NCBI GenBank assembly: GCA_003557545.1 | Contig: PWOD01000110.1 | Span: 1 to 8,255, forward strand | Direction of reading: 5' to 3' | DNA: 8,255 nucleotides | Origin: a bacterium | Lineage (GTDB): Bacteria; T1Sed10-126 | Shown here: one piece after another, positions 556 through 5,515 of the stretch | Layout of the letters: each line of letters begins with the position of its first letter | Position numbering within the stretch: position 1 is the stretch's first letter | Position numbers and translations under genes: made by a program | Notes under the pieces: generated by a model | The model's input: only the letters and a program-made list of their open reading frames with translations | What the model was told of the DNA's origin: nothing | The model's database searches: none

Positions 556-2316
556 TCAACCTTTAGCCAGCGAATAGATCTGTATAATGGGAAATTTTTC
601 TGACCAGAGACTTACTGTTACCTTACCAACCAGAGTAACTGACCGACCAGGTTGAAGAACACCAACTTGGTCAACTTGATCAGCCAGGATGAGTGCCTGA
701 CACCAGCCTGTTGTATCTTTTAAAGTCAACAGCTTATGGACCTCTCCAACCGAACGTAAATTAATCAGCTGCATTTTGGAAAGTTTAACTATCAGCGGAG
801 GAAAATTAGCTGAAAAAGGAAGTAGTTTTAAAAAGCCTTCACCCAGCTTATAAAGCTCTTTAGCGGTGATTTCACCATCATAAACAAAGTTTGCAGCAGT
901 CATCTCCTTCTCATGCCGTTCTAATAACCGGGATACAAACTGTTGAGCTGGCCTGTCAGTCACAGCTAATTTTTCTAACCAAACCGGCTCCTCAGATAAC
1001 CGTTTCACTAACAATTCCGGGCTATTATATTCAACTTCGTTCCGTAATTGCCGATGGAGCCTGTCAGGCAGACCATTAATAAAAAAATGAGCGGCTGGCG
1101 GTGTCCCCTGAACAACCAGTTCACCAGAAATGTTTTCTCGTAACCAATTAATCCCCCGACGATAAACCTGCCTCTCTAACCGGCTGTCAGACGACCATTT
1201 CCAGGCTCTTTCCAAAACAAAATAAGGACTGATTTCTGCTAAAACCTTATCGATATCACCCGGTGTTTCAGATTTTAAACGGGCATAAATCTCTCCAGAA
1301 GCCCGAGCGTCGGCCAGAGCCCGATGATGATCAACCAACTCCACCCCCATATGCTGACAGACACCTTTTAGACTATAACTGGGAAGTCCGGGTAAAGAGG
1401 CCTGGGCCACCCGCATCGAATCCGCAGAAGAATTGGGCAATCCACGCCCAAGATATTTTTTACAATGATGCCTTAAAAAAGAAAGGTCAAATCCTTTGTT
1501 ATGAGCTACCACAAGAGATTCGCCAAGAAATCGGAGGAATTTTTCCAGTGCCTCATCCGGGGGTAATCCAGCCTGCACGTCAGCATCAGTCAACCCGGTT
1601 ATTTCAACAATTTTAGGCGGCACTCTGTCCACAGAATGGACAGTGGTTTCAAAACTGTCTACCAACTGTCCCTTGTAATATTTAACAGCACCGATCTCAA
1701 TAATTTCACTGTTGCGGGCCGAATAACCGGTAGTTTCAAGGTCAACTGCAACAAAACTTGGTAACTCTGCCTCATATAGTTTACGAGCTACTGTTTCCAC
1801 AACACGATAGCAGAGCAAGGTTAAACAGATCTCAGCTTTTTCCAGACCGACAACTTGCTGACTCGTTCCAGAAAACTGTTGGACCGGCCGGGCCGAAAGA
1901 TAAAATTCCGAATCACCTAAATTTCCCATCTGATCCCCGGTAAACAGCCCAACATGAGTTGACATTCCGGACGGTTCCGCAGCAACTATTTCAACTTCAC
2001 CGCCCAGGGATCTCAACCCGTTCTGAAGCAGAGCGGCTGAAAGAAACGCAGAAAACCGGGGTGAAAATGACAGTTTGATCGGCTGTTTGTCCCGTAAAAG
2101 AGCCAGCAAAAAAACAGCCAGACTATCAAGATTCTGAATCTCTTGAGAAGAGCCAGCCGGCTCAGCAGAATTATCTAAAAACTGCTCAAGTTGGCTGGCC
2201 GATTCAATCTTCCGCCGGCGAAAAAAACTTTCCATCACAGCCGGACAATCCAGTTGTCGATCTAATCCAGCTCCAGGTAACAGCTCCCGTTCTGACCAGT
2301 TGTCTAACTCTATCAC
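556..2316 (-). CDS. DnaQ-type DEDDh 3'-5' exonuclease embedded in a RecJ-like scaffold (586 aa)
   Basis: The middle of the protein (residues about 187-350) is a complete DEDDh exonuclease domain. Exo I is VDLETTG (D192, E194), Exo II is AHNKGFD (D277), and Exo III is HRALAD (H331, D336). It should remove nucleotides from DNA or RNA 3' ends with two metal ions. The flanks look like RecJ. Residues 24-115 match its N-terminal helices, and SAALLQNGLRSLG (93-105) lines up with the helix after RecJ motif I. The motif-I aspartates are replaced by S85, R87 and S89. Residues 155-182 resemble the later DHH helix. Residues 355-470 resemble the section from 'VADVVPLVGENR' through the linker. Residues 478-584 match the RecJ C-terminal OB-fold (LLPFSANFPPLIV, then VTLVGKVTVSLW). 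The GGHxxAAG signature of DHHA1 is absent. DinG-type helicase motifs are also absent. The start is GTG, overlapping the PNP stop by 4 bp (GTGA) without a clear ribosome binding site, so translation is probably coupled. The exonuclease call is firm; the RecJ ancestry is a by-eye alignment. Confidence 0.9.
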   Translation of the reverse strand: MIELDNWSERELLPGAGLDRQLDCPAVMESFFRRRKIESASQLEQFLDNSAEPAGSSQEIQNLDSLAVFLLALLRDKQPIKLSFSPRFSAFLSAALLQNGLRSLGGEVEIVAAEPSGMSTHVGLFTGDQMGNLGDSEFYLSARPVQQFSGTSQQVVGLEKAEICLTLLCYRVVETVARKLYEAELPSFVAVDLETTGYSARNSEIIEIGAVKYYKGQLVDSFETTVHSVDRVPPKIVEITGLTDADVQAGLPPDEALEKFLRFLGESLVVAHNKGFDLSFLRHHCKKYLGRGLPNSSADSMRVAQASLPGLPSYSLKGVCQHMGVELVDHHRALADARASGEIYARLKSETPGDIDKVLAEISPYFVLERAWKWSSDSRLERQVYRRGINWLRENISGELVVQGTPPAAHFFINGLPDRLHRQLRNEVEYNSPELLVKRLSEEPVWLEKLAVTDRPAQQFVSRLLERHEKEMTAANFVYDGEITAKELYKLGEGFLKLLPFSANFPPLIVKLSKMQLINLRSVGEVHKLLTLKDTTGWCQALILADQVDQVGVLQPGRSVTLVGKVTVSLWSEKFPIIQIYSLAKG

Positions 2317-3131
2317 AGCTGTGGTATAAGCTTTCGAACCAGCCGCTTAAATTTATCTTTAGCCTTCTCAGTGGTTTCGATAACCTCAGCATGATCAAGC
2401 GGCTGATCAAGAATACCGGCCCCCATATTAGTGATACATGAGAGACCGAGAACTCGTAATCCACAGTGATTTGCAGCTACCACTTCAGGGACAGTAGACA
2501 TTCCGGCAAGATCTCCCCCCAGTCGACGGTACATTCTAACAGTAGCGGGAGTTTCATAAGAAGGCCCCATGGAAGCCACATAGACCGCTTCTTCCAGGGT
2601 GATTTTCAAACTGCGGGCCGCCTGGCGTGCCAGTTCTTTCAGCTCTGGATCATAGGCATAAGTCATATCAACAAACTGCGGACCAACATCAGGTGCTTGA
2701 ACACCGATCAAAGGATTATTACCTAAAAAATTAATGTGATCATCAATTAAAGCCAGGCTCCCAACAGAATACCCCTGATTAACTGCTCCGCTGGCATTGG
2801 TAACCAGCATTGTCGAACAACCAACAGCCTGCATCACCTGCACCGGAAAGACAATATCCTGGATTGGATGTCCCTCGTAATAATGATATCTCCCCTGCAT
2901 GAGGTAAACATTTCTATTTTCCAGCCGCCCCAGCACAAGCTGACCGGCGTGACCTTCGACACGAGATGGTAAAAAACCCGGGATATCCTCATAAGAGATA
3001 ACCACGGCATCTTCAACTTCATCTCCCAGCTCCCCTAACCCGGAACCAAGAATAAGACCCAGTTCTGGTTGAAAATCGATCTTTCCCCTGATGAACTCTG
3101 CTGTTGCTGCTATTTTTTCTGAAAGCTTCAA
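2313..3131 (-). CDS. punA: Purine nucleoside phosphorylase, trimeric inosine/guanosine type
   Basis: Cytosolic enzyme that splits inosine, guanosine and their deoxy forms with phosphate into the free base and (deoxy)ribose-1-phosphate, in purine salvage. At 272 residues it has the usual length of the trimeric PNP family. Visible signatures are LILGSGLG (phosphate loop, S30), EGHAG (H61), GRYHYYEGH (R81, H83), TNASGAVN (111-118), MGPSYETPATVRM (base-site E192), GMSTVPEVVAA (M211, S212) and SCITNMGAG (N235). All expected active-site residues are present. The start is TTG at 3131. A GGAGGT site at 3141-3146 lies 9 nt upstream, and a stop codon directly precedes the TTG in this frame, so no earlier start is possible. 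The TTG overlaps the stop of the GH94 gene (TTGA), and the gene's own stop overlaps the exonuclease start. The product may feed on nucleosides released by the neighbouring nuclease. The gene name follows common usage; deoD and pupG are also used for this family. Confidence 0.95.
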   Translation of the reverse strand: MKLSEKIAATAEFIRGKIDFQPELGLILGSGLGELGDEVEDAVVISYEDIPGFLPSRVEGHAGQLVLGRLENRNVYLMQGRYHYYEGHPIQDIVFPVQVMQAVGCSTMLVTNASGAVNQGYSVGSLALIDDHINFLGNNPLIGVQAPDVGPQFVDMTYAYDPELKELARQAARSLKITLEEAVYVASMGPSYETPATVRMYRRLGGDLAGMSTVPEVVAANHCGLRVLGLSCITNMGAGILDQPLDHAEVIETTEKAKDKFKRLVRKLIPQL

Positions 3132-5515
3132 CTAACATACACCTCCACATGAATTGCATCTCCCGTTTCAGGAAATGGTATTAAATCACCATCAAACTCT
3201 TTTTGATCAACCACTAACTTAGAAATCTCACCATCTCCTCCCGGTTTTTGAAAAATCTCAACCATCCACTCAACACCACGCAATTTTCTGTTAACCTTCA
3301 CGTAATCCCAATCAGGGGGTAAAGCAGGACTAATTTTTAACCCATCCCAGTCTGCCCTGACACCAAGAATATGATCAAGCACCGCCCGATAAACCCAGGA
3401 GGCCGTACCGGACAACCAGTGATAGTTACCCTGTCCAAAATCATCCGAATCAGGACCGGTTATATTCTGACAGTAAACATATGGTTCCAATCTATACAGA
3501 TCAGCATCATCGGCAGCGCGGGTCGTAGGGCTGATCTTTTTCCAGAGCTGATAGGCCTCTTTTCGCCAACCAAGTTCAGCCAGGGCCACCAGGGCAAAAG
3601 CGGCAGCATGGCTAAAGATCGAACCATTTTCCTTTTTGCCGGGATAAAACTGGGTAATTACCCCGATTTCAGGATCAATCTTATCATATGCCGGAGCAAA
3701 ATAACGCAGACCACAGGAACTATCTAACAGTTGATGTACAGCAGCAAAACTGAGCTCTGCTCGATCGCGATCCGCCACTCCTGACAGTACACCCCAGGTC
3801 TGTGTGTTAAGAAACAGCTGCCCGGCGGAATTTTTTGCACTCCCCACCGGCTCCCCTTCATCTGTGAATGCTCTCAGGTACCATTTACCATCCCAGCAGT
3901 CACGGTTTATTGTATTTTTTATCTGTTCAGCCTCCGACCGATAAGCTTCAATTCGATCCTTATCTTTATATCCATATTGATCAAGAATCTCCACGGTTTT
4001 CTGCAGAGCCAGGCAGAGAAACTGACCGATCCAGACCGACTCACCGGTTCCCTCATCACCCAGGGTATTTAATGCATCATTCCAATCACCATAGCGAATC
4101 AGAGGAAGTCCCCGCTCGCCACGCTGGGTTAAAACATAATCGATTCCCGCCAGCATGTGCTCCAGAACGGTCCCGCTTTCCTGACTGTCAAGATAAGGTA
4201 CCTGTTCTTCTAAAAACTGCCAATCACCTGTCTGTTTTAAATAGGCTTCAACCGCCAGCGGAACCCAGAGCGGATCATCGGCATTATTACTTTCATCAAA
4301 ATCCCTCGCTCCCCGAGGTGTCCGATGTGAATTTAAACCATTTTTGAAATTAAATGAAAGTATGTGCAGCAACTTCTCACGGCCCTCAGGAGCAGCAAAT
4401 GGAGTGCAACCATAGGTTTCATGACAACCATCCCTGTACCCCGTATATCCCTGCGAAGAGTGCCAGAACGAGGGAGCCCGACCGAACCATGTGTTAACTG
4501 TAACCTGATAGGGCAGCCAGCGATTAACCAGATTTTGCAGGTCGCGATCAGGCAGCTCTACCTGCACCGGAGAAAATCGTTCCTGCCAGTAGTCCAGGGT
4601 TTTGGCGCGGGCCTGTTCAACGTAACTGTTCGACCGGTAGTCAGACCAATCAACTTGCTCCAATTCAGTTGTTTCCACGACACCCACCATACAGCTCAAA
4701 TCTTGCTCTCCGCCCGCTGGCAGGGTGACTGTCCAGTCCATTGCACCAATAGCTTCAGAACCCTCTACTTCATGACAGCCCAACTGCTCTTGCTCCAGAG
4801 CCTGTGGGTTATGATAATCACGGTAGGGTCCAAAAAACTCACTGTGGCGGGTCTCCCAGCTCCGGGGTTTCTGGGTCGCTGTCATGTACATATGGTAGGG
4901 CCACTGCAATACCTCCCGGGGTACTCCTGTCTTAGTCTCCCAATGACGTTTATGGCCAAGCAGCAGATGATCTTTTTCAATATATCTGACAACTTTAAAC
5001 AGCTGGTCCCACTGACGATCAGTTGCATCACGAGCCGAATTCCCCATTAACCACTCACCTACAGCCACCACCCGGAGCCGGCGCTGCTCTGAACCCTGGT
5101 TGATAATTTTTAACGACCAGATCTCCTGATCTTCATCCGGAGGAACAAAATACTCTATCTCGGTTTTAATCCCCTGATATTCAGCTTCAATTCTGGTCAG
5201 TCCCGGTTGATGAATTGCTTGAAAATTTTCCAATGAACTATTCATTGGAACTCTATTTGGAGACCAGACAGTTCCCCGCTCCTCATCAACCAGATAAAAA
5301 AATCTTCCTGGACAATCACGCCGTAGTCCAGCCGACTCCCGACGCAGGGTGAAATGTCTGGCTGGATCAACATAGAAAGAAAAACCACCACCGTGCTGAC
5401 TGATCAAAGCACAATAATTACCATTGGTTAAATAATTAATCCACGGTAGAGGTGTATTAGGATTTTTGATTATAAAATTTCCCCGGTCATCAAACTCACC
5501 ATATTTATATTTCAC
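3128..5515 (-). CDS. GH94 family beta-glycoside phosphorylase (cellobiose phosphorylase-like, 795 aa)
   Basis: A cytosolic inverting glycoside phosphorylase that should split a beta-linked disaccharide with phosphate into a sugar-1-phosphate and a second sugar. Its length, about 800 residues, matches cellobiose, chitobiose and cellobionate phosphorylases and is too short for cellodextrin phosphorylase or cyclic-glucan synthases. The N-terminus has the family opening: FDDRGNFIIKNPNTPLPWINYL, read as two pieces at residues 8-18 and 19-29, followed by GGGFSFYVDP. The N-terminal beta-sandwich spans roughly 1-300 and the catalytic (alpha/alpha)6 barrel about 320-720. GDWND (476-480) contains the expected catalytic acid, D480 by analogy with chitobiose phosphorylase. 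GSIFSHAAAF (H636) and SGTASWVYRA (702-711) match phosphate-site segments. The start is GTG with only a weak AGGG site, but no ATG is available and the N-terminus aligns with the family. It is the first gene of an operon and has no sugar transporter beside it. Substrate is undecided: cellobiose, cellobionate, chitobiose and laminaribiose all remain possible. Confidence 0.92.
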   Translation of the reverse strand: MKYKYGEFDDRGNFIIKNPNTPLPWINYLTNGNYCALISQHGGGFSFYVDPARHFTLRRESAGLRRDCPGRFFYLVDEERGTVWSPNRVPMNSSLENFQAIHQPGLTRIEAEYQGIKTEIEYFVPPDEDQEIWSLKIINQGSEQRRLRVVAVGEWLMGNSARDATDRQWDQLFKVVRYIEKDHLLLGHKRHWETKTGVPREVLQWPYHMYMTATQKPRSWETRHSEFFGPYRDYHNPQALEQEQLGCHEVEGSEAIGAMDWTVTLPAGGEQDLSCMVGVVETTELEQVDWSDYRSNSYVEQARAKTLDYWQERFSPVQVELPDRDLQNLVNRWLPYQVTVNTWFGRAPSFWHSSQGYTGYRDGCHETYGCTPFAAPEGREKLLHILSFNFKNGLNSHRTPRGARDFDESNNADDPLWVPLAVEAYLKQTGDWQFLEEQVPYLDSQESGTVLEHMLAGIDYVLTQRGERGLPLIRYGDWNDALNTLGDEGTGESVWIGQFLCLALQKTVEILDQYGYKDKDRIEAYRSEAEQIKNTINRDCWDGKWYLRAFTDEGEPVGSAKNSAGQLFLNTQTWGVLSGVADRDRAELSFAAVHQLLDSSCGLRYFAPAYDKIDPEIGVITQFYPGKKENGSIFSHAAAFALVALAELGWRKEAYQLWKKISPTTRAADDADLYRLEPYVYCQNITGPDSDDFGQGNYHWLSGTASWVYRAVLDHILGVRADWDGLKISPALPPDWDYVKVNRKLRGVEWMVEIFQKPGGDGEISKLVVDQKEFDGDLIPFPETGDAIHVEVYVS
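3141..3146 (-). promoter_or_regulatory. Ribosome binding site of the TTG-initiated PNP gene
   Basis: The minus strand reads GGAGGT, 9 nt before the TTG at 3131 and inside the last codons of the GH94 gene. It is the evidence that the rare TTG codon is the true start of the phosphorylase. Confidence 0.75.

Follow-up and report, generated by a model that had tools for sequence, protein, structure and literature searches.

The gene at positions 556..2316 (minus strand) of the window, the 8,255-nucleotide stretch of DNA analysed here, encodes a protein of 586 amino acids (P0001) in which a complete DEDDh (DnaQ-like) 3'-5' exonuclease is nested within what appears to be a RecJ-derived scaffold with a dead catalytic centre. 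Judging from the sequence evidence, P0001 probably belongs to a family of nested two-nuclease proteins, as the form in which RecJ is dead and DnaQ live. The initial annotation had already read the gene as a DnaQ exonuclease lodged inside a catalytically dead RecJ, and this reading is upheld by a residue table, profile tests, relatives with an exonuclease in the same loop, and a shared gene neighbourhood. The lineage T1Sed10-126 corresponds to Candidatus Busufiota, for which two genomes (2.15 and 2.2 Mb) are described from hypersaline soda lake sediment (PMC11382960). The assembly that carries P0001 (G000) comprises 2,151,867 bases; the only other T1Sed10-126 genome in the set (G001) carries a single orthologue, P0002, which is 39% identical to P0001 in the search match and shares its domain architecture and gene order. 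P0001 and P0002 are the only two orthologues known.

The reading frame of P0001 comprises 586 codons and begins with a GTG at position 2316, which shares four bases (GTGA) with the stop of the upstream gene, a purine nucleoside phosphorylase (2313..3131, minus strand; PF01048, E 1e-51); phosphorylase neighbours are conserved at loci of this kind, as described below. The latter gene is in turn overlapped by a gene for a GH94-family phosphorylase (window 3128-5515), an arrangement that is kept in G001. An Rfam scan of the window gave no match. The loss of the RecJ centre and of the DHHA1 domain, described below, could be taken as signs of a decaying pseudogene; however, the frame is open in two genera, the start is coupled to the upstream gene, the DEDDh set is complete and the exonuclease is 54% identical between the orthologues, which makes decay extremely unlikely.

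The exonuclease domain occupies residues 187-348 (1273..1758, minus strand). PF00929 matches residues 189-344 with an E value of 1e-32, above the gathering score, and the comparison with the Thermotoga maritima PolC exonuclease (2p1j) yields E 2e-29. The active site that the initial annotation had described as intact (D192, E194, D277, H331 and D336) was recovered in full and in order in the residue check. The identity of 54% between P0001 and P0002 within this domain, compared with 25-30% elsewhere, marks the exonuclease as the constrained part of both proteins. Among the VIA-align matches listed, a list filled by this one domain, only exonucleases are found, and scans of the genome contigs with P0001 recovered G001 and otherwise mostly PolC and other DnaQ-domain proteins. 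PolC, in which a DnaQ domain is nested in the PHP nuclease domain, provides both the closest exonuclease sequences and a similar design, a DEDDh exonuclease inside another nuclease domain; in P0001, however, the host domain is RecJ and there is no polymerase.

Known bacterial RecJ proteins (TIGR00644), with structures from Deinococcus radiodurans and Staphylococcus aureus, have the DHH-DHHA1-OB architecture. The regions of P0001 on both sides of the exonuclease follow the same order: residues 1-186 (1759..2316, minus strand) correspond to the N-terminal region of RecJ and the beginning of its DHH domain, and residues 471-586 (559..906, minus strand) to a RecJ-type OB domain. With a profile built from 26 ordinary RecJs, residues 18-110 align without gaps to RecJ 19-111 (hmmsearch, E 4e-4 to about 1e-3 as a single test). 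Profile-profile comparisons (hhalign) were run with P0001 and P0002 from which the exonuclease had been cut out, each against a null of 200 column shuffles. The N-terminal flank scored 31.2 (best shuffle 27.5), the OB region 37.1 (best shuffle 24.1) and the two flanks joined 43.6, with a collinear alignment of positions 5-418 to RecJ 6-556 (best shuffle 23.9). Since each of these scores exceeds all 200 shuffles, the resemblance of the flanks to RecJ, weak as it appears by single sequence, is not one of chance. The flank profiles thus do match RecJ, and the alignment that the initial annotation had drawn by eye, with the caution that it could be overread, is now backed by hmmsearch and by shuffle-tested hhalign; its assignment of the C-terminal 107 residues to the RecJ OB-fold is likewise borne out.

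The signal is unevenly distributed along the C-terminal flank. Immediately after the exonuclease, residues 353-396 (1129..1260, minus strand) appear equivalent to the helix region of RecJ with the signature ALGTVADVVPL..ENR..GL, with which the corresponding P0002 segment, LAPLASLAMLSAADFSSADERNLFSYGQRILKE, lines up. A position-free joint scan of P0001 and P0002 has its top score at this segment, a modest result given that 80 of 3000 shuffles score as high anywhere; the scan and the alignment lend modest support to the earlier comparison of the segment with 'LVGENR...GL-RL' of RecJ. The linker that follows at the place of DHHA1 (residues 397-470; 907..1128, minus strand) shows no RecJ signal, with 72 of 200 shuffles scoring as high, and its interpretation as a degenerate DHHA1 was rejected for this reason. 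The earlier statement that the sequence on both sides reads as RecJ in the right order accordingly stands for the N-terminal flank, the OB domain and the collinear whole but not for this linker. As far as can be told from sequence, the RecJ scaffold remains recognisable only in its N-terminal part and in the OB domain, and the DHHA1 half is gone.

The possibility that the flanks are unrelated to RecJ, so that P0001 would be a DEDDh exonuclease with an unrelated N-terminal region and an OB-like C-terminal region, has to be weighed against these results. No Pfam RecJ or DHH match in the flanks is above the cut-off, RecJ_OB is matched below threshold (residues 480-573, E 0.08; P0002, E 0.13), and the linker lacks signal; yet the collinear end-to-end profile alignment exceeds all shuffles, and the insertion point and gene neighbourhood are the same as in the RecJ-DEDDh proteins described below. 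We consider an unrelated origin of the flanks very unlikely. Structure prediction provides weaker evidence: the AlphaFold model obtained from P0001 and P0002 alone was unusable (pLDDT 35), and the only usable one, obtained with RecJ rows in the alignment, had a pLDDT of 64 and matched S. aureus RecJ in Foldseek with E 7.9e-8, a match that is not independent of those rows.

P0001 retains from RecJ, besides the domain order, the aspartate of motif II (D128), which is also present in P0002. The three aspartates of motif I are replaced by S85, R87 and S89, exactly as the initial annotation had listed them; no DHH occurs at the aligned position of motif III, and the aspartate of motif IV is replaced by K/A. 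The DHH triad and the DHHA1 signature are indeed missing, as that annotation had also noted: P0001 has no GGH motif and no Pfam match to DHH or DHHA1 (PF02272) even at E 1, and it is absent from the TIGR00644 matches in G000 as TIGR00644 is from the NCBIfam matches listed for P0001. Because these defining features of RecJ (the TIGR00644 match, the metal ligands of motifs I, III and IV, and DHHA1) were checked and are absent, P0001 should not, on the sequence evidence, be filed as a RecJ nuclease.

RecJ and exonuclease searches of the same genomes (with TIGR00644 for RecJ), followed by a wider search, identified open reading frames that match both. At least nine other genomes encode a RecJ that holds a DEDDh domain in this same loop and in which both centres are intact; in the residue table, both ligand sets are present in L058-L061, L177, L178, L180, L181 and L184. 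A further protein of this type, in an Elusimicrobia genome (L115), is spread across two reading frames of its record and stands outside the residue table. The Pfam matches of the relatives comprise DHH, DHHA1 and, mostly, RecJ_OB, with RNase_T nested after the DHH match. In all of them the insertion loop lies between the helix that ends with ...AFKLAQAL in the DHH core and the strand of motif IV, and the alignment places the exonuclease of P0001 between the same two elements; this loop is variable among ordinary RecJs. P0001 and P0002 combine a dead RecJ with a live DEDDh set, whereas all relatives scored retain both catalytic centres, with the exception of L072 and L183, in which the insertion loop is the same but the RecJ ligands are live and the DEDDh ligands lost, the mirror image of P0001. 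The eroded insert of L072 is still recognisable as DEDDh (1.5e-18).

Two additional loci, L071 (2384-4507) and L073 (2428-4557), encode RecJs with an insert of about 140 amino acids in the same loop, which may represent either a DnaQ that has eroded completely or some other domain; the sequence gives no support for DnaQ, and these proteins were left out of the RecJ-DnaQ count. The divergent 711-amino acid RecJ-DnaQ of L184 (1333-3468), together with L185, has a weak DHHA1 and an altered ENR motif and possibly represents another stage of RecJ erosion.

We found no description of a RecJ with a DnaQ insertion in the literature outside subscription papers and preprints, so that an earlier description is possible. 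The statement of the initial annotation that the arrangement is not known as a described family holds to this extent, although the arrangement itself is not unique to P0001. If the insertion in P0001 is the same as that in the relatives, it is older than the death of the RecJ centre. The proposal that a 3'-5' centre replaced the 5'-3' centre of RecJ is then to be modified: the insertion and the dead RecJ are both borne out, but the 'replacement' would be the loss of one of two co-existing centres.

Evidence for common descent comes from the gene neighbourhood. Of the 10 loci of the RecJ-DEDDh type sampled, 9, with L072 among them, lie next to a gene for a nucleoside phosphorylase (PNP or deoA), versus 1 of 30 ordinary recJ loci, which were viewed with 1.5 kb flanks (Fisher p 4e-7). 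This value is only approximate because the ten loci include L071 and L073, with inserts unproven as DnaQ, and the related loci of the window and G001; flank lengths also differed.

The phylogeny of the exonuclease is less clear. In trees of about 170 columns, the P0001 and P0002 domains group with PolC exonucleases, apart from the other RecJ-inserted domains, with moderate to weak support (84/71 to 91/75) and with PolC over-sampled, the sequences having been drawn in by their similarity to P0001. The AU test does not reject a single clade of RecJ-inserted domains: p is 0.108 when all seven of the first tree are joined, and other groupings give 0.28-0.45. The tree position, the variability of the loop in ordinary RecJs and the presence of other inserts at the same place, such as those of L071 and L073, would all fit an independent event, in which this permissive loop of the Busufiota RecJ, then either ordinary or already dying, received an exonuclease of the PolC type. 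Given the common phosphorylase neighbourhood, which argues for common descent, and the outcome of the AU test, we regard such an event as a somewhat unlikely though serious alternative; it concerns the origin of the domain only and would leave the mechanism proposed below unchanged.

The descent of P0001 from a nested two-nuclease protein, which we favour, suggests the following scenario. A DEDDh exonuclease would have come to sit in the RecJ loop that leads from the DHH core helix to motif IV; the 5'-3' centre of RecJ then probably died in Busufiota, its ligands in motifs I, III and IV being lost and DHHA1 deleted, and the DEDDh centre was kept. P0001 is predicted to be a two-metal 3'-5' exonuclease that releases 5'-dNMPs at single-stranded or frayed 3' ends, 3'-5' digestion of single-stranded DNA being its most likely activity. 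The RecJ-derived OB domain and the residual N-terminal part may grip the strand, an unproven function for flanks that are poorly conserved. Since the gene is coupled to that for purine nucleoside phosphorylase, a role in 3'-end processing in repair and in the recycling of DNA nucleotides can be proposed, as the least certain part of the scenario.

The initial annotation had suggested a search for a normal RecJ in the same genome. None was found in G000, where the TIGR00644 search gave no match of RecJ grade and the three DHH proteins are not RecJ. In G001, an 8.2-kb phage- or plasmid-like contig (C2; L063) encodes a primase-like protein, a RecJ of 573 amino acids and a DNA polymerase III alpha subunit; given the primase-like and polymerase genes, the contig looks mobile, and its RecJ was set aside as a candidate for the cellular protein. 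A cellular RecJ was found in neither Busufiota genome, and at 92-93% completeness its absence from both by chance is unlikely. RecO was found in both.

A second feature of these genomes concerns PolC. The DEDDh domain is degenerate in the PolCs of both G000 (C236; L166:799-5109) and G001 (C54; L165:1495-5808): ExoI is kept, the HNxxFD motif has become YEASFV, with loss of the ExoII aspartate, and the ExoIII set is lost, whereas the other aligned PolC exonucleases keep these residues. Inspection of the alignment suggests that the nine PHP metal ligands are intact (motif according to PMC12926913). In a 2026 survey of Pol III alpha subunits, the inactivated domain is PHP, not DnaQ (PMC12926913); an earlier survey found the exonuclease wholly missing in 6% of PolCs (PMC3919608). 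At codon 642, the G000 PolC gene has an in-frame TAG, with Glu in G001, which may be an assembly error, a recent nonsense change or a case of readthrough.

Could P0001 supply in trans the 3'-5' editing that these PolCs lack? Apart from the loss of the ExoII aspartate and the ExoIII set from both PolCs, the idea gains from the PolC-like character of the P0001 exonuclease, evident from profile scores and, weakly, from the trees, and from the fact that, of the three RNase_T matches found in G000, P0001 alone has the complete DEDDh set. G001, however, has a second one besides P0002, a separate DnaQ of 284 amino acids; a clamp-binding motif is not conserved in P0001 and P0002, the PHP domain with its apparently intact ligands could itself proofread, and the neighbouring genes belong to nucleoside salvage rather than to replication. 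Proofreading in trans therefore appears unlikely. The broader proposal, in which lineages with nested nucleases of opposite polarity lose either centre and, in Busufiota, where those of RecJ and the PolC DnaQ are both lost, the nested exonuclease serves the whole genome, proofreading included, is quite improbable. Both genomes also encode proteins of about 205 amino acids with DEDD-like motifs (L161, L162 and L163), in which HTGLTGA or HTGLSGA stands for the ExoIII HxAxxD.

In eukaryotes, the RecJ relative Cdc45 lacks nuclease activity and is a helicase subunit. As in P0001, the RecJ scaffold is retained and the catalytic centre is gone; unlike P0001, Cdc45 has no nested exonuclease. P0001 may illustrate a route from nuclease to scaffold comparable to that of Cdc45. 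The degenerate PolC proofreader makes Busufiota an exception to the published generalisation and turns replication fidelity in this phylum into a testable question. RecJ and DnaQ attack opposite ends of DNA; one chain that carries both nucleases, and from which different lineages appear to have dropped one or the other, would amount to a natural experiment on the coupling of 5'-3' with 3'-5' digestion. In Busufiota, the protein that occupies the RecJ position may have a polarity opposite to that of RecJ.
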